Positions 1 through 28,181 of a DNA stretch of 64,000 nt are shown piece by piece. Both the position numbers and the translations under genes were made by a program. Under the pieces are notes generated by a model. It saw only the letters and a list, made by a program, of their open reading frames with translations, searched no databases and was not told the DNA's origin. Numbering within the stretch: position 1 is the stretch's first letter; the number at the start of each line of letters is the position of its first letter. The DNA lies in contig CAJQOX010000069.1 in NCBI GenBank assembly GCA_905480075.1, forward strand, positions 1 through 64,000. Reading direction: 5' to 3'. The stretch comes from an uncultured Aureispira sp. (lineage in GTDB: Bacteria; Bacteroidota; Bacteroidia; Chitinophagales; Saprospiraceae).

Positions 1-696
1 GGGCTGTTGGAATACAGTACAGACGGCACGAACTGGCAGGACGGCAACCTGTTTACCGGACTGACTGCGGGCATCTACGATTTGATTGTTAGGGATGAAA
101 ACGGCTGTGTCGATAGCACGCAGGTAGTAGTAGAAGATGCCAATCCCTTCTTCATTACTACAATAACAGAAAACACGACCATAGAATACCTCGACAGTAT
201 GACCGTAGAAGCAATGGTCAACGACACGACAAATGTACTCTACAGCTGGACACAACTGGAAGGCACCACTATAGGACTTATAACCGACAGCAGTTACAGC
301 TTCGGTATTGCACCGGAAGAGAAAGTCAGCTACCTCTTCTCAGCCGTCAACGAATTCGGTTGCCGAGTAGACAGTATCGTCATCATCGATGTTACAAAAC
401 CAAGACGTGCCAATGCCCCGACCGCCTTTACCCCTAACGGAGACGGCGTCAATGACAACTTCTTTATACAGGGAGGCGAGAAGGTCGAGGAAGTGGTTAT
501 TTTCAGAATCTATGACCGCTGGGGCGAGTTGATGTTTGAAGGAAGGAACCTGGAGATTAACAACCCTGTACAGGGCTGGAACGGTAATTTCAGAGGCAAG
601 CCCTGTTCTTCGGGCACCTATACCTGGTATGCTGATATTCTTTTTAAAGATGACGAAACCACTCAGATTAAAGGCGATGTTATTTTGTTGAGGTAA
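1..696 (+). CDS. SprB-repeat / gliding motility-associated C-terminal (T9SS type B sorting domain) protein, 5'-truncated by the window edge
   Basis: Frame is open from base 1. 'YSTDGTNWQDGNLFTGLTAGIYDLIVRDENGCVDST' resembles a SprB repeat; C-terminus 'APTAFTPNGDGVNDNFFIQG...FRIYDRWGELMFEGRN...GWNGNFRGKPCSSGTYTWYADILFKDDETTQIKGDVILLR' is a classic type B CTD. Confidence 0.9.
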   Translation, partial: GLLEYSTDGTNWQDGNLFTGLTAGIYDLIVRDENGCVDSTQVVVEDANPFFITTITENTTIEYLDSMTVEAMVNDTTNVLYSWTQLEGTTIGLITDSSYSFGIAPEEKVSYLFSAVNEFGCRVDSIVIIDVTKPRRANAPTAFTPNGDGVNDNFFIQGGEKVEEVVIFRIYDRWGELMFEGRNLEINNPVQGWNGNFRGKPCSSGTYTWYADILFKDDETTQIKGDVILLR

Positions 697-1484: not shown

Positions 1485-4400
1485 TTATTTCAAAATAACA
1501 AGCTTTTGAAATTCACTGCTTTGTTTTGTATTGCTGTTGTTGCCTTCTGCCCTGACAAAGATTTTATAGATATACACCCCTTTTCCGATTCTGTCTCCAT
1601 AATCGTCAAGACCATCCCAGTTAATATTACTTACCCGGTATCCTGTGTTCACTTCTTTGTATACCTCATGTTCGAGGGTTTTTATTAACCTGCCCGAAAC
1701 CGTGTAAATCTGAATCTGAACTTCAAGTCCCTGATTAGGTAAATTGTGTTCAAACTGAAAATTGGTGTTTGTTGTAAAGGGGGTGGGGTAATTCAATACA
1801 TGCCTGAGGGCCATATTAGCATCATTTGCGACAATAAATTCTGTAGTACCTTCTCCGGGATTGTTATAAGTATCCCAGGCTTATATATCTACATTATAAA
1901 GCCCCTGAGGTAGATTTTTTAGTTGATATATTGCTGTACCCTTTGTGAAGTCATCGATGGCCGATTCATAAAAGTTATTTAAAATATATTCATTTTCAGA
2001 AAGACCTTCGGTCAGTTTTGCTGTTAAATCATGTCCAATACCGTTCCCAACAGTATTTATTCCGTTTTCATCATACAGCTTAATCAATAATTTGGGATTG
2101 TTGTCAGTAATTCCACCTTCTGCAAATTCTTCATTATTCATATAAACCATTACTTCCGGGCCTGTATTATCCATTGATGCATTAGCAAATGTACCACCAA
2201 CAACCAATCCATTATAATAACCTGTAGCATCCTTGTCAATACCATTCTCTGCGTAGCATGTGATTTTTCCGAAACCCAATGTATAATTTATATCCCTTGG
2301 GACAACAAAGGAGATTGTAAACTTTCCATTACTTACGGTAGCCTTGCCTTTGAAAATAATTTTTTTGCGGATAAAAAAGTCATCCTTATAACTATCATCA
2401 TCATTGCCCAATGTGTAAATTTTATCTTTCTTATCAAAAACAGTTATATATAAAGTACCGTTAAACCCATTTACAATACTATTAGTATTATCAGTAATAT
2501 CTCCTGAAACAGTCACAAATTGTAAAGCACTTATAGTGTCTTGCCCTGTAACGGTATTTCCGTTAATCTGATTGATTCTCACTTTATATTTTGGGTAAGC
2601 CAAAGTCATTGTAGGGTCACCCAGCAGAGTATATTTTCTAAAATTAGCAGATAAAGGATTGCCGACGGTATTTTTTGTGTTTTGCATAACCTCTCCGATA
2701 GTCGATCTGAGTCCATTTGCTTTCCTGTCAAAAATCACTTCAAAAGTTTTTTTAACCAAATCTTCGTTTTGGTTTGCCATAACAACCCTGACAGTAGTAA
2801 AAAGAGCAATTGCTCCCCCACCGGGGTTGAGGAGTAGTAATTCAGCAGCAGACACTATATCAGGATTGTCGTGCGGGCCAAAAGTACAGGTAGCAGTTAT
2901 AAAAAGTGGCAATTTATTTTTATTGGATAAAGACTTAATATCATTGCTTGTGAAAATTTGTTCCTGAGTCCATCCGTTATCACTTCCATGTCCCAGGTAA
3001 TTGACAATAAAACTACCTTTGCCCAAAACATCCAAGAGGGCATTTTTTGCTTCAGGATAACGATTGCCACCTGAAGTACTTTCTTGTTTGAAGGCATCGA
3101 TGTAAATTTTATCAATATTATAAAGACTGTCTTCTTGTTCTGTAATAACAGAAACTTTTTCAGAACCATTAAAGTAAGAGTTGCCATCGCTGTCATCAGC
3201 AACAAAGCATATTCTGTTTTTCCAATCCTTCATAAAGGCAGGGGCACTTTCATAAGCAATTATTTTATCAACAAATATTTTTGCTTCAGAAAGGTTAGAA
3301 GCAGGAAGCCTTCCTACTGCGATATCCAAAGCACTGAAACTTGAAAATGATTCGGTTGTATCCAATAATGCAAAGTAGTCATCAGAAGTATAAGTTGTGA
3401 TGGGGTTCATAGACTCCCTTGTTTCATAAACAGGGATTAAATTTGGATTATTCTCAGTTGTCCTGCCATAGCCCAGTGATTTGTAATCAAAGGTTCCAAT
3501 CCCAAACAGCAACAAGTGAGTAAATTTATTTGTAGGGGTTTCCCGTTCATAAAGCATTCTGCAATAATCTCTGATAGCTGTAACATCAGATTTTCCTGAA
3601 GAGAATTCATTAAATATATCCTGTACGTCTATAACATCTACAGTCATGTTGCTGAAGGTGCGTCTATGCGCAGCCAAACGGTCAGCCTCATCCTTAAGGG
3701 ATGAATGGCAAATAAAAACCGCATCAGGAGGGCTGGTGATTCCATGCAAATTCTGATTTCTTACAGAACCCACTGCAACAGGTGTATAGAATTGATTATT
3801 ATCGAAGGCAACAAATTCACGTAAAACGGAAGCCTCAGCACCAAAGGAAACCGTCCCTGATCCTGTAGCAACAATTTCGATGTTATCGGGGTATGTCACA
3901 TCCCAAATGCTTACATTATTAGCATTTGAAAGTTGATAGTTAGCTGTTGTCTGACCAACCGACCTGCTATCTCTGAAAGGAAGTTGACCAAAGCTGAAAT
4001 TCAATTGACAACGCACCTGTACCGAGAGGTAATTCATCCACATATCAGCAGTTGAACTGCTATGGTTTAAAGTTATCTGTGCATTAATATTCTGACCAGA
4101 CAAAATAGTTGAGTTGCAGGGGAAGGTCAATTTTTTTGCATAGGCTGTATGAATTGAAATAGATGTTGTAGCAGTGTTAACTGTACTGATAGCACTATTG
4201 TTGAGAATCAGGTCAGCAGAACCCGTAGTCATTACCCTTACGGCAAGGTCAGATAAAACAATAACCGGTTCGTTTTCAATTCTATTATAAAAATGAAAGT
4301 TAAAAGTTCTTGTTCTGTGTTGTTGAAACAAGAACGATTCGCCGTACCATTCCCTGCCTGAAGGGGGAAGCGCAAATTCTTTTTCCATCAGATTAAATTC

Positions 4401-5363
4401 ATCTTTTTCGTGATGTGCCAAAGCGTCATAGCTTGTAGTAGAATAATTTGCAGGGGATGCTGAGGCACGTCCTGTTATACGTTTGCCATTGCTGTTAGCT
4501 ATTTTAATAAAATAGTAACTGTTATCTGTATAGGGATTAGAAGAGTGATTGAATTTTCCACAGCTTGCAAAATTGTTGAAATTCCAGGTTTTGGTACCCA
4601 CGCCATAAAATAGTATATAGTCACTTTGACCGAAACTGCCATCGGATTCGCCTTCTACAAAAATGGCATTTTCCGTCAAATCATCGACGCCTGTAACAGC
4701 CATAGATTCTCTGAGGGCATTGCCACCATTTCCAAGTACCTGTATGTTGCGGGGGTCAATATTATCAACATCAACTCCCAGGGTTTTCAGGAAGTTATAA
4801 TCCATCTTAAAAATGCCGGTATTAGGAATTGATATTTTATAAATATAACCATCAGATAATTTTGAGGATGTTGTATAGTTTCTTGATGTGCCCGATGTAT
4901 AAGGCGAAGGTTTTGGAGTTTGCGAAACCTGTAGTTCTGCACTTATTAACTTCTCATAAACACCTGTAGTCTGATTTTTTCGTATAGGAACAAAATATAC
5001 TATTCCTACTGGTTCACGACGTTCAAAAGTTACTCCGGTTTTTATATCTATATCTTCAATCCCGGAAAGATCAATTTCTGAATTATTTGTAATAGCAGTG
5101 TATTGTGTGTTTACCAGCCTTGCGCTGATATCTGAATAAGAGTTTAATTTAATTTTAGCAGACCAAATTGGTGTTTGAGGATTTATACCATTATACGAGG
5201 CATCATGGAAATACAAATAGTGAAGTATGTGGTCTTCTGTTATTTTATATTTACGCGCTTGTTCCTCCCAGTTGATGTTAATTTTTTGTGTATTAGTTTG
5301 TGCATAAATGAATGAGGAAGCAAGGAAAGGAATTAATATAGAAAAAAGGATAAAACGTATCAT
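1485..5363 (-). pseudogene. porU: Type IX secretion system sortase PorU (gingipain-like C25 peptidase), interrupted by an in-frame TAA at 1881-1883
   Basis: ORF 1881..5363 (1160 aa) carries a C25 peptidase-like region (e.g. 'FIVNYLGHGSDNGWTQEQIFTSNDI...LPLFITATCTFGPHDNPD'). ORF 1485..1814 is in the same frame; the linker after the stop reads AWDTYNNPGEGTTEFIVANDAN-MALRHVLNYPTPF..., typical of the PorU C-terminal FlgD-Ig-like region. Confidence 0.85.
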
Positions 5364-6130: not shown

Positions 6131-7135
6131 ATGAAGTTTATTATCATTATACTTTTATTATTGTTTATTAATGGACGGGTATCAGCTCAGGACCCCGTTT
6201 TCAGTCAGTTCTATGCTGCCCCTATGCAGCTGAATCCGGCACTTACAGGCTTGGTTGCCGCTCCTGTTTTGACCCTTAATTACCGAAATCAATGGCCATC
6301 GATACCCAATGCCTATTCAACGTATGCTGTTTCATTCAGTCAGTATATTCCCAAAATAAACTCAGGGCTTGGTGTTCTTATTGAGGCAGATATAGCAGGA
6401 GGGGGGATATACAGCACCTATAAGGGAGGATTGTTTTATTCCTATGACATCAGATTCTCCAAAAAATTATTCATAAGAGCTGGCATAGATGCATATTTTG
6501 TTAATTCCCGGCTTTCTAATGGACAATTGGTTTTTTTAGATCAGCTTAACCCGGAGACCGGTGCAGTAGATAATAACGGTAATGTTAATCCGACAAATGA
6601 ATTTATTAACAATCAGTCTTTCAGTTACTTTGATATGGGGGCCGGTTTTTTGTTTAACAGTCCCTGGTTTCATGCAGGAGTATCTATAAAACATTTAACA
6701 ATTCCCAAAGAAAGTTTCATAAAAAAGCAGGAAGATGGTTCTGAAGAACTACCTTTGAGGATTACAATTAATATTGGTAGTGAATTTCAGCTGTCGAAAC
6801 GCAATAAAATTAAAAATAAGACGTTTTTATCACCAAACGCTTTATTTATTAAGCAGCGGGAATTTCATCAGTTAAACATTGGGGCCTATCTTCGGTATGG
6901 TTTATTTTCCGGGGGAATTTGGCTTCGGCATACTTTTACAAATACTGATGCCGTTATATTGATGGTAGGTGTACGCAAGGGTATTTTTAAAATAGGTTAT
7001 AGTTATGACTTTACAGTTTCCGGATTAGGTATGAAATCAGGAGGCGCACATGAAGTCTCAATAAGCTTTAATTTTGAAAATAAAAAACAAAAATACTCGA
7101 ACCGATACAATGATTGTCTGGAAATATTCCGGTAA
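6131..7135 (+). CDS. PorP/SprF family type IX secretion system membrane protein
   Basis: Signal peptide, then 'QDPVFSQFYAAPMQLNPALTGL...NYRNQWPSIPNAYSTYAVSFSQY', the hallmark PorP/SprF N-terminus. Confidence 0.93.
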   Translation: MKFIIIILLLLFINGRVSAQDPVFSQFYAAPMQLNPALTGLVAAPVLTLNYRNQWPSIPNAYSTYAVSFSQYIPKINSGLGVLIEADIAGGGIYSTYKGGLFYSYDIRFSKKLFIRAGIDAYFVNSRLSNGQLVFLDQLNPETGAVDNNGNVNPTNEFINNQSFSYFDMGAGFLFNSPWFHAGVSIKHLTIPKESFIKKQEDGSEELPLRITINIGSEFQLSKRNKIKNKTFLSPNALFIKQREFHQLNIGAYLRYGLFSGGIWLRHTFTNTDAVILMVGVRKGIFKIGYSYDFTVSGLGMKSGGAHEVSISFNFENKKQKYSNRYNDCLEIFR

Positions 7136-7195: not shown

Positions 7196-8716
7196 ATGAA
7201 GAAATTATTTTTAATTGGACTGCTTGGTGTTCTACTGATGTCGTCTTGTAACAAGAACAATGAAAAAATGGGCGGACGGTCAGAAACTACCGGCTGGGCC
7301 TATAACAGTCAGGAATGGGGAGGTTTTGAAAAACCGATGGAGTATCAGGGACAAGCCACAGGTCCGAACCTTGCCTTTATTGAAGGAGGAACCTTTAATA
7401 TGGGACAAACGGAGGAAGATGTCATGAAAGATTATCGTGGAATCCCCCGTCGTGTAACTGTTTCTTCATTTTATATTGATGAAACTGAAGTGTCAAACCT
7501 CGATTATCTTGAATTTTTATACTGGCTTCAGCGTGTACATTCAGCTATGCCACAATTGCACAGAAAAGCACTTCCGGATACCTTGGTCTGGTACGAAGAA
7601 CTTTCTTATAACGAGCCTTATGTAGAAACTTATTTCAGACACCCTGCATATATGGATTATCCTTTGGTTGGGATTTCCTGGATTCAATGTCAGGAGTATT
7701 GCAAATGGAGAACGGACCGTGTTAATGAAATGATTCTGATTGAATCCGGTAAAATTACGGCAGATCATGAAGGACAACAAGGAGAAAATAACTTTGTAAC
7801 GGAATCTTATCTCGCAGGTATCTATGAAGCAGATCCGGGTGAAAAGCCAATGGTTAGCTATAGTACAGGGGAAGAAAGGAAAGTTAGATTTGAGGATGGT
7901 ATTGTACTTCCTGATTATCGTTTGCCTTCTGAAGCAGAATGGGAATATGCTGCGCTTGCTTTGATAGGAAATCAATCCTATTCCAGAGACGAACGTATCT
8001 CAGACCGTAGAATTTATCCTTGGAATGGTACTACAGTCCGTTACCCTCAGCATGGCCCTTATCAGGGAAATATAGTTGCAAACTTTAAACGTGGCCGTGG
8101 TGATTATATGGGTATGGCGGGTGCATTGAATGATAATGCTTCTATTACGGCACCGGTACGTTCTTATATTCAAAACGATTATGGTCTCTTTAATATGGCC
8201 GGAAATGTAAATGAATGGGTTCAGGATGTTTATCGTCCTTTAACAAGCACAACGCTCAGAGATGTGGAAACTCAGGATTTAAATCCTTTCCGTGGTAATA
8301 CTTTTACTGAAATCGAATTGGATGCTGACGGTAAGCCGCAGTTAGATAATGACTCTGTTAATCCTGGTCGTTTGAAATACAAAGCCCTGGATGCTGATGA
8401 GATTGCTTCAAGAAGAAACTTTCAGTTTTCGAATGTAATCAATCATATGGATGGTGATAAACAATCTGAATCTGAATATGAGTATGGAATACATTCTTTG
8501 ATTTCTGACAAAACCCGTGTTTACAAAGGGGGCGCATGGAATGACAGAGCTTATTGGTTGTCTCCTGGTGCACGTCGTTTTCTTGAAGAAGAAAAAGCTA
8601 CTGCTTATCTTGGGTTTCGCTGTGCTATGACAAGAACAGGTTCACCTAAAGGAAATATCGCTCCTGGTGGAAATCAAATCAGAACTTCCAACAGAGGATC
8701 GAGCAGAAGATATTAA
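7196..8716 (+). CDS. gldJ: Gliding motility lipoprotein GldJ-like (formylglycine-generating enzyme-like fold)
   Basis: Lipobox LLMSSC; 'FIEGGTFNMGQTEEDVMKDYRGIPRRVTVSSFYIDETEVSNLDYLEFLYWLQRV...YPLVGISWIQCQEYCKWRTDRVNE...LGFRCAMTR'. Confidence 0.85.
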   Translation: MKKLFLIGLLGVLLMSSCNKNNEKMGGRSETTGWAYNSQEWGGFEKPMEYQGQATGPNLAFIEGGTFNMGQTEEDVMKDYRGIPRRVTVSSFYIDETEVSNLDYLEFLYWLQRVHSAMPQLHRKALPDTLVWYEELSYNEPYVETYFRHPAYMDYPLVGISWIQCQEYCKWRTDRVNEMILIESGKITADHEGQQGENNFVTESYLAGIYEADPGEKPMVSYSTGEERKVRFEDGIVLPDYRLPSEAEWEYAALALIGNQSYSRDERISDRRIYPWNGTTVRYPQHGPYQGNIVANFKRGRGDYMGMAGALNDNASITAPVRSYIQNDYGLFNMAGNVNEWVQDVYRPLTSTTLRDVETQDLNPFRGNTFTEIELDADGKPQLDNDSVNPGRLKYKALDADEIASRRNFQFSNVINHMDGDKQSESEYEYGIHSLISDKTRVYKGGAWNDRAYWLSPGARRFLEEEKATAYLGFRCAMTRTGSPKGNIAPGGNQIRTSNRGSSRRY

Positions 8717-25575: not shown

Positions 25576-25610
25576 ATGAAAAGCCATCATTAATTTGAAG
25601 TGATTTCTGG

Positions 25611-28181
25611 TTAATCTTCCTGATTGGGTGTTTCCTCCTCTTCAGGAGAATCTACTTCAACTTCGTTTTTAGTTTCTACGGATTTCAGCATTTCTTCTGC
25701 CGCTTTAACCTTAGCTTCTGCCGCTTTTATCTTAGCTTCGGCTGCTCTTATTTTTTCTTCCGCATCCCTTATCTTTTGCTCCGCAGCACTTACGTTTGCT
25801 TCTGCCCTCGCTTTTGCCTTTGCTTTAGCTTCCGCATCTGCCGCAGCCTTTGCTTCAGCTTTAGCCGCAGCTTCTGCAGCAGCTTTAGCTTCAGCCTCTG
25901 CCTTTGCTTTTGCCTTAGCCTCTGCCTTGGAGTTCTTGCCTTTTTGCTCTGCTTTCACACGTTTGGCTTTTTCTTTTGCCTCTTGTGCTTTTTTCTCTGC
26001 TTCTTTAGCCAATTCCTCCGCTTCTTTCGCTTTTAATTGTGCATATTTCACCCTCGATTTAGCATAAGCTTCTGCTTCTTTGGCAATAGCATGAGCATCT
26101 TTGGCATTTGCCTCCGCATCTTTGGCTTTAGCTTCCGCTTCTTTGGCTCTCGCTTCAGCGAATTTAGCATCCGCCTCAAGTTCTTTAATTTTAGAATCAT
26201 CTTCATTAGCTTTGGCTTTTGCTTCTGCTTCTTTAGCCTTGGCTTCCGCTTCTTTCGCTTCTGCTTCCATTTCTTTAGCGTATGCTTCCATTTCTTTAGC
26301 GTATGCTTCCGCTTCTTTAGCTTTAGCTTCCGCTTCCTGTGCAGCAGTTGCTGCATCTTCGGCTTCATCGGCCGCTTTTTTAGCCCTTTTAGCAGCATTT
26401 TTAGCGTCTTCCTCCGCTTTTTCTGCTTCTGCTTCTGCCTGCATTGTTTTGTCGTTACCTGAAATATAAATGGTGCAATAATCAGGGCCAAGTTTTCTTA
26501 ATGTTTTCCTGTTTTTCTTTTTGTCGCCAATAGGGTTTCTTGATAGTTCCAATTGACGTAATGAAAACAAAGGATGCGGTTCAAACTTAACTTTGTAAAA
26601 GCAAGGAGGTAATTCTGCTATCTGATTGTCTTTGAAAAACATATAAGCGATGTTTTCCAGTTCGCCTATTTCATCAGGAATAGTTGTCAACAGGTTGTGG
26701 TCCATGCTTAGAATAATAAGCTTTGAAAGCTTGCCTATTGTTTCTGGTATTTTTGATATTTTATTGTGAGAAAGGTACAGTCTTTTCAGACGCTTCATAA
26801 ATTGCAATGTATCAGGCAAACTGGTAATCTGATTGTTATTTGCGGTAAGGGTTTGCAATCGGACCAATCCTTTTATGCAGGAATCAGGGATGCTTGTAAT
26901 TTGGTTTTCGTGAATAAACAAAACTTCAAGCTTTTTTAAATTTGCCAGTCCCGCAGGGAAATCAGTAAAATTATTTCTGTGAAGATAACATTCCCTTAAT
27001 TTGCTTAATTGACCTATTGTATTGGTTATTTCACTCAATTCATTGTTGTGTGCAAGGAAAATCTCCAGTTCAGTAAGCAATCCCAGAGATTCCGGAACAT
27101 CGCTCAAATTATTGCTGTTGATGTGTAAAACCTCTAGTTGATTGAGTAATCCGAGGCTGTTTGGTAATTCAGTGATATTATTGTCAGAAAGATGTAGTTG
27201 CTTCAAATTTACCAGCTGAATAATTCCTTTTGGAATGTTGCTTAGCTTGTTTCCTGAAAGAGTAAGGGAAGTCAGGGAGCTCAGCATTTCGATAGAGTTT
27301 GGAAGGGCATTGATCTCGTTGTTGGAAAGCTGACAAATTTTTAATTTTGTCAATTTCCCAAAATCTTCCGGCAAGTCAGTAAGGTTGTTGTTGTCAAGGG
27401 ATAATTCTTCAAGATTGCCAAAATCAGTAAGACCCTCCGGGATATTGCTGATGTCGTTGCCACTTAGCAGGATAATTTTAAGCTTGGTCAATTCTTCGAA
27501 GGTGCCCGGAAATGAACTTATTTTATTGCTGTCTGCCCGCAGTACTTCAAGGTTTTTCCAGTTTCCGATTTCTTCAGGTAAAGAGACAAGCACGTTTTTT
27601 TGTGCATTGATTTTTTTTAATCCCGTTAAATTACTCAGACTTTCAGGGAGAGTTGATAAGTTGTTTTCAGATATATCCAGAACCTGTAGATGATTCAATG
27701 TCCCTATGCTTTCAGGTAAATCAGATAAGTTATTGTTGTTTATATGTAAAAATCTTAGGTTGGGTAGTTTGTCAAAGATATCAGGGAACGTCGCCAGTTG
27801 ATTGTATGAAATGTCAAGATAGACTAGCTTTGTTAATTTCTCAAGACTATCAAGATTGAAATAATTTTTTTGTGACTCAATTTTTGACTGCAGGTGTTTA
27901 TACTGCTGAATCCTTTTTTCCTTATTAGGTACAAAAATCGTGTCAAGCCCGTTTATAGTATCCTGTATTGACTTTTTTAGCTTGTCAAGACTCTTTATCC
28001 TGTCAGGGATACCGCGCAACTTTAATTTGTATACATTCTCTGATTCCTGAAGGGCCAATCTCAATGAAGTGTATATATGCTTTCTGTCTAATGCTATCTT
28101 TAACTCCTTTGACTTAAGGACTTGTGCAAATGAAATTTGACAGGTAATTATTATAAAGAAGAGAAAAGAAATGTATTTCAT
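25611..28181 (-). CDS. Secreted leucine-rich-repeat protein with long Ala/Glu/Lys coiled-coil tail
   Basis: Signal peptide MKYISFLFFIIITCQISFAQ; many LRRs (LxxLxLSxNxLxxLPxxLxxLxxL) followed by about 230 aa of EAEAKAKEAEAYAKEMEAYAKEM-type repeats. Confidence 0.9.
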   Translation of the reverse strand: MKYISFLFFIIITCQISFAQVLKSKELKIALDRKHIYTSLRLALQESENVYKLKLRGIPDRIKSLDKLKKSIQDTINGLDTIFVPNKEKRIQQYKHLQSKIESQKNYFNLDSLEKLTKLVYLDISYNQLATFPDIFDKLPNLRFLHINNNNLSDLPESIGTLNHLQVLDISENNLSTLPESLSNLTGLKKINAQKNVLVSLPEEIGNWKNLEVLRADSNKISSFPGTFEELTKLKIILLSGNDISNIPEGLTDFGNLEELSLDNNNLTDLPEDFGKLTKLKICQLSNNEINALPNSIEMLSSLTSLTLSGNKLSNIPKGIIQLVNLKQLHLSDNNITELPNSLGLLNQLEVLHINSNNLSDVPESLGLLTELEIFLAHNNELSEITNTIGQLSKLRECYLHRNNFTDFPAGLANLKKLEVLFIHENQITSIPDSCIKGLVRLQTLTANNNQITSLPDTLQFMKRLKRLYLSHNKISKIPETIGKLSKLIILSMDHNLLTTIPDEIGELENIAYMFFKDNQIAELPPCFYKVKFEPHPLFSLRQLELSRNPIGDKKKNRKTLRKLGPDYCTIYISGNDKTMQAEAEAEKAEEDAKNAAKRAKKAADEAEDAATAAQEAEAKAKEAEAYAKEMEAYAKEMEAEAKEAEAKAKEAEAKAKANEDDSKIKELEADAKFAEARAKEAEAKAKDAEANAKDAHAIAKEAEAYAKSRVKYAQLKAKEAEELAKEAEKKAQEAKEKAKRVKAEQKGKNSKAEAKAKAKAEAEAKAAAEAAAKAEAKAAADAEAKAKAKARAEANVSAAEQKIRDAEEKIRAAEAKIKAAEAKVKAAEEMLKSVETKNEVEVDSPEEEETPNQED
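25700..26455. repeat. Degenerate GCN/GAN-rich tandem repeat encoding the coiled-coil
   Basis: Reiterated 'gcttcngcttctttngcttt' motifs on the + strand; 'atttctttagcgtatgcttcc' occurs twice back to back around 26271-26311. Confidence 0.8.

Follow-up and report, generated by a model that had tools for sequence, protein, structure and literature searches.

A premature stop codon in one of two porU paralogs of an Aureispira-clade genome

The window examined here, a 64,000-nucleotide stretch of DNA from an Aureispira-clade draft genome (G000; 5.08 Mb in 408 contigs, 92.4% complete), carries a gene for the T9SS sortase PorU whose reading frame is divided by an in-frame stop codon. The gene lies beside a porP/sprF-family gene and gldJ, which are conserved neighbours of porU in related genomes (Table 1). 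On the other side, the contig starts inside a gene that ends in a T9SS type B sorting domain (window positions 1-696; TIGR04131), and porV, the usual neighbour of porU, is absent from this side.

Table 1. Coordinates of the divided porU gene and its conserved neighbours in the window
Feature	Position	Strand	Content and basis
Window porU paralog, truncated ORF	1881..5363	-	1160 aa; signal-peptide-like start, N-terminal region, C25 peptidase domain; PF01364, NF033707
Premature stop codon TAA	1881..1883	-	Lys in 11/11 other genus copies
Detached in-frame 3' tail, 131 codons plus stop	1485..1880	-	NF033707 positions 972-1095, TIGR04183, alignment with 6za2
porP/sprF-family gene	6131..7135	+	TIGR03519; upstream flank of the porU locus in seven other genus genomes
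gldJ	7196..8716	+	TIGR03524/TIGR03530; second conserved neighbour of the porU locus

The 1160-residue product of the truncated ORF, hereafter the body, scores 1065.6 bits against the T9SS sortase PorU model NF033707 over model positions 2-969, where the equivalog cut-off is 420 bits, and its PF01364 match has an E-value of 1.2e-102. The tail beyond the stop matches positions 972-1095 of the same model (E-value 8.3e-40) and also exceeds the cut-off of the T9SS type A sorting domain model TIGR04183. In alignments with the PorU chain of Porphyromonas gingivalis (PDB 6za2), the body extends up to residue 1025 and the tail covers residues 1032-1144, and the His (NYLGHGS, with GHG) and Cys (ITATC, with TATC) motifs of the truncated ORF align with the structure. 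The N-terminus, MIRFILFSILIPFLASSFIYAQ, is typically signal-peptide-like when judged by eye. The window gene thus resembles known PorU, the identity given in the preliminary description, in its domain order, in a C25 domain with both catalytic motifs, and in a tail that matches the C-terminal domain. However, P. gingivalis PorU keeps its C-terminal domain, whereas the window ORF stops short of it: the T9SS domain is encoded in frame beyond the TAA and not on the same polypeptide as the body, although it is present in all other PorU copies examined. The putative sortase PorU2 (NF052324) is likewise a T9SS-linked member of the C25 family, and several copies occur in the window genome, but assignment of the window gene to PorU2 is excluded by its score of 188.6 bits against a cut-off of 450.

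At the break, the minus strand reads GTA GAT ATA TAA GCC TGG GAT, and the tail frame then remains open until its own TAA at 1485-1487 and takes in the final portion of one domain and, after it, the entire T9SS C-terminal domain. Because the two parts cover neighbouring segments of NF033707, they represent one gene with a single interruption and no indel, as the preliminary description had proposed in reporting an in-frame TAA that cuts off 131 codons and leaves the 3' part as intact coding sequence. Its proposal that Lys is the ancestral residue also agrees with the comparison: the stop column is Lys, encoded by AAA or AAG, in all 11 other genus copies (10 PorU copies from seven related genomes plus the second copy of the window genome, described below), and across all homologs it is Lys in 16 of 18, the remaining two having Thr and Arg. 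The suggested single change is correct for AAA to TAA but not for AAG to TAA, which takes two changes. Among the PorU genes of approximately 58 related genomes, the window gene alone has an open frame that ends where the body match ends. A crude test of adjacent open segments identified porU as the sole gene in the window split by a single stop; the other adjacent segments proved to be pairs of distinct genes, a stretch of low complexity, or an unlikely reverse-strand frame. TAA is the commonest stop in the window, terminating 28 of 38 long open frames including the end of this gene itself, and this usage rules out recoding of the codon.

A whole-genome search with the window body recovered a second porU that is split over contigs C273 and C174. 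The C273 piece (C273:1-2832) is 69% identical over query residues 1-946, and the body match on C174 (C174:3-617) is 74% identical over residues 956-1159, lying within a 338-aa frame (C174:3-1019) with an intact C-terminus that ends in FQKLVILK. The PorU model matches the pieces over adjacent parts, giving 828.7 bits over positions 2-750 for C273 and 387.9 bits over 768-1095 for C174. Together they hold both catalytic motifs and the intact C-terminal domain, with porV (NF033710, 425 bits) directly downstream on C174. The expected gap between the pieces is nine residues, and no stop occurs in either piece (~25 nt between them being unassembled). The end of C273 is unique in the genome except for the window paralog and no foreign sequence was seen at either contig end; a mobile element or other insertion in the gap is unlikely. 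A disabling lesion therefore coexists with a second copy that is undamaged outside those ~25 nt, which is the combination that marks a pseudogene of a duplicated gene. The preliminary description had by implication placed the attachment sortase of this genome in doubt, while noting that an intact second porU would make the window copy dispensable. Such a copy is present beside porV, and the doubt is not upheld.

The arrangement of the two copies can be compared with that in seven other genomes of the genus (Aureispira, Saprospiraceae), where porP and gldJ lie on one side of porU and porV lies on the opposite side; porU adjoining porV is the usual arrangement. The window copy retains the porP/gldJ side and the C174 copy retains the porV side, as expected from a tandem pair that was later separated. 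In three of the genomes a tandem pair of porU genes occupies the space from porP to porV (G003, L033; G004, L034; G006, L035), and G001, G002, G005 and G007 carry a single porU. The porV-adjacent genes of the clade (the second copy, those of G001, G005 and G007, and others) have bodies 60-70% identical to the window copy and share the porP/gldJ flank. In contrast to them, the window copy is not beside porV, is evolving faster and bears the stop. The longer branch belongs to the porV-distal copy in all four pairs, with distal and proximal lengths of 0.023 and 0, 0.074 and 0.0065, and 0.25 and 0.045, and of 0.30 and 0.12 in the window genome, although four pairs are too few for significance (two-sided sign test, p = 0.125). 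Two further observations concern individual genomes. In the G004 pair the tails are 100% identical and the bodies 91.6% identical, a pattern that suggests gene conversion of the C-terminal domain. In G008, a 99%-complete assembly, porU is represented by its first ~90 residues, which lie at the end of a contig (L044), and by its last ~29, which lie near porV (G008:C38, G008:C31); the assembly lacks the middle, which a tandem duplication left unresolved would explain.

In the PorU tree, the window copy is sister to a group formed by the G007 copy and the C273/C174 copy (support 100/99). The tree and the AU test (p = 3e-62) reject an ancestral duplication held in common with the pairs in G003, G004 and G006. 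The arrangement that makes the two copies of the window genome sisters, corresponding to a within-species duplication, is only borderline rejected (p-AU = 0.049), and therefore the age of the duplication is unsure. The tree of PorP, GldJ and PorV joins the window genome with G007, and the duplication therefore probably predates the split between these two genomes.

Sequence change in the window copy is elevated but bears the pattern of a coding gene. Of the positions at which the other genus copies do not vary, it departs from them at 39 of 492 in the body and at 7 of 80 in the tail. Body differences in those copies are mostly 0.2-3.6%, and only G002, the deepest branch, is similar at 7.4%. 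For the window branch, dN/dS = 1 is rejected under a codon model with three branches (2dlnL of 76.2 and 66.4), and the tail alone gives values of 8.9 and 4.3; codon dS is saturated (8 or more), so that only this test, and not the dN/dS estimates, was used. No further stop or frameshift occurs in the 3.87 kb of body and tail, where each 0.1 neutral substitutions per site is expected to produce ~15 stops in the body and two in the tail. This limits unconstrained divergence to at most ~0.02 substitutions per site when the whole gene is counted, and to 0.15 if the tail alone was released. The window copy was under purifying selection until recently, and these results argue against a long-standing loss of constraint. 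Because no second lesion has accumulated, the stop is either recent or not real. Thus, both options in the preliminary description, a recent lesion or an assembly error, still stand; the lesion is very young, or it is a consensus error or a population variant.

The probable consequence of losing the tail can be judged from P. gingivalis, where the C-terminal domain of PorU spans A1054-Q1158 and where PorU with its last six residues replaced stays in the periplasm and mimics a porU deletion (PMC11285876). That mutant resembles the window gene in losing the C-terminal export signal while keeping the rest of the enzyme, although there the change was engineered, was far smaller, and was introduced into the porU native to that organism. 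By analogy with it, a window PorU that lacks the whole C-terminal domain should miss the surface and should no longer work as a surface sortase. Some residual activity is possible, given that the catalytic His and Cys are kept.

We consider it likely that the premature TAA marks the recent loss of function of a redundant porU paralog, with the other copy carrying out cargo attachment. By this account, the window gene would be one of two porU paralogs in the genome, and the TAA would have recently removed the last 131 codons, and with them the T9SS C-terminal domain on which PorU depends for its own passage across the outer membrane. Judging from its signal-peptide-like start, the 1160-aa product should still reach the periplasm by Sec export but would not be secreted through the T9SS, and the published P. 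gingivalis mutants suggest that it would not act at the surface. Cargo would most likely be attached by the copy beside porV. The damaged gene, presumed here to be functionally equivalent to that copy, would be a redundant duplicate, already evolving fast and only beginning to be lost. On this view the explanation is an ordinary one, a spare paralog that recently lost its function, or else an artefact of sequencing or of the population. The genome contains at least 150 type A cargo matches above the TIGR04183 cut-off, an abundance consistent with a working second porU, and it has most likely not lost its attachment sortase. More generally, a broken porU should not be read from a single contig of a draft assembly.

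It is rather unlikely, but well worth considering, that the TAA reflects an error in the consensus, or an allele carried by a minority of the source population, and that the genome encodes two intact, working PorU paralogs. One substitution separates TAA from Lys, the genome is a draft in 408 contigs, and the absence of a second lesion over 3.9 kb, along with a tail that still appears to be selected, would fit an intact gene. However, the lesion is a substitution rather than an indel in a homopolymer, the window showed no second gene split by a single stop, and the copy affected is the spare, fast-evolving one, which could tolerate a real lesion. The preliminary description also raised a functional stop, by readthrough or a two-piece protein. 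A tail-less PorU active in the periplasm, or readthrough that tunes the amount of surface PorU, would accord with the retained catalytic motifs and signal-peptide-like start and with purifying selection on body and tail along most of the branch. We regard this as very improbable: none of the homologs is split, no other PorU gene in the ~58 genomes ends at this site, TAA serves as an ordinary stop in the window, the body carries excess changes at invariant sites, and the missing T9SS export domain is one without which P. gingivalis PorU is neither secreted nor functional (PMC11285876). Only slightly less improbable is a broader proposal, in which Aureispira porU has been repeatedly duplicated in tandem and the porV-distal copy becomes a specialised second sortase that may be full-length, tail-less or lost, so that the stop would be one such state and not simple decay. 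The recurrent duplication in the genus is nevertheless a modest lead on sortase specialisation, and is the more useful by-product of this analysis.

There is also little chance that the second porU derives from a contaminating relative, which would leave the window organism with only the broken copy. C273 and C174 have no physical link to the window contig, and in the tree the window copy branches immediately outside the G007 and C273/C174 pair. However, measured against the genome's own contigs, C273 (0.138) and C174 (0.111) have tetranucleotide distances inside the 0.083-0.155 seen for 18 of 19 sampled own contigs and outside the 0.20-0.31 of the seven related genomes, and contamination is therefore unlikely. 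The estimated contamination of the genome is 0.93%, tandem pairs occur in three sister genomes, and the window and C174 hold complementary sides, porP and porV, of one ancestral locus. A contaminant source was accordingly rejected on composition and synteny. The one outlier among the sampled contigs (L092, G000:C147) has a GC content of 0.438 and a tetranucleotide distance of 0.36 from the rest of the genome, and may be foreign or a binning outlier, or may carry a repetitive cargo gene.

Other sortase-like genes were encountered in the same genome. The PorU2-type family is expanded, with members on C399, C98 and C159 and a partial one on C15, but these genes are not evidence of PorU function. 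The member on C399 (L085:5992-12108; NF052324, 665.6 bits) lies directly upstream of a second PorV-scoring gene, whose 458 bits exceed the score of the PorV beside porU. A weak C25 match on C272 (L041:4446-7739) was rejected as a PorU; it is a gingipain-like cargo protein with choice-of-anchor J and T9SS type A sorting domains. Elsewhere in the window, a low-complexity open frame at 25599-26459 on the plus strand is very rich in Phe, Cys and Ser, contains one internal stop, and is probably the reverse strand of a repetitive gene.
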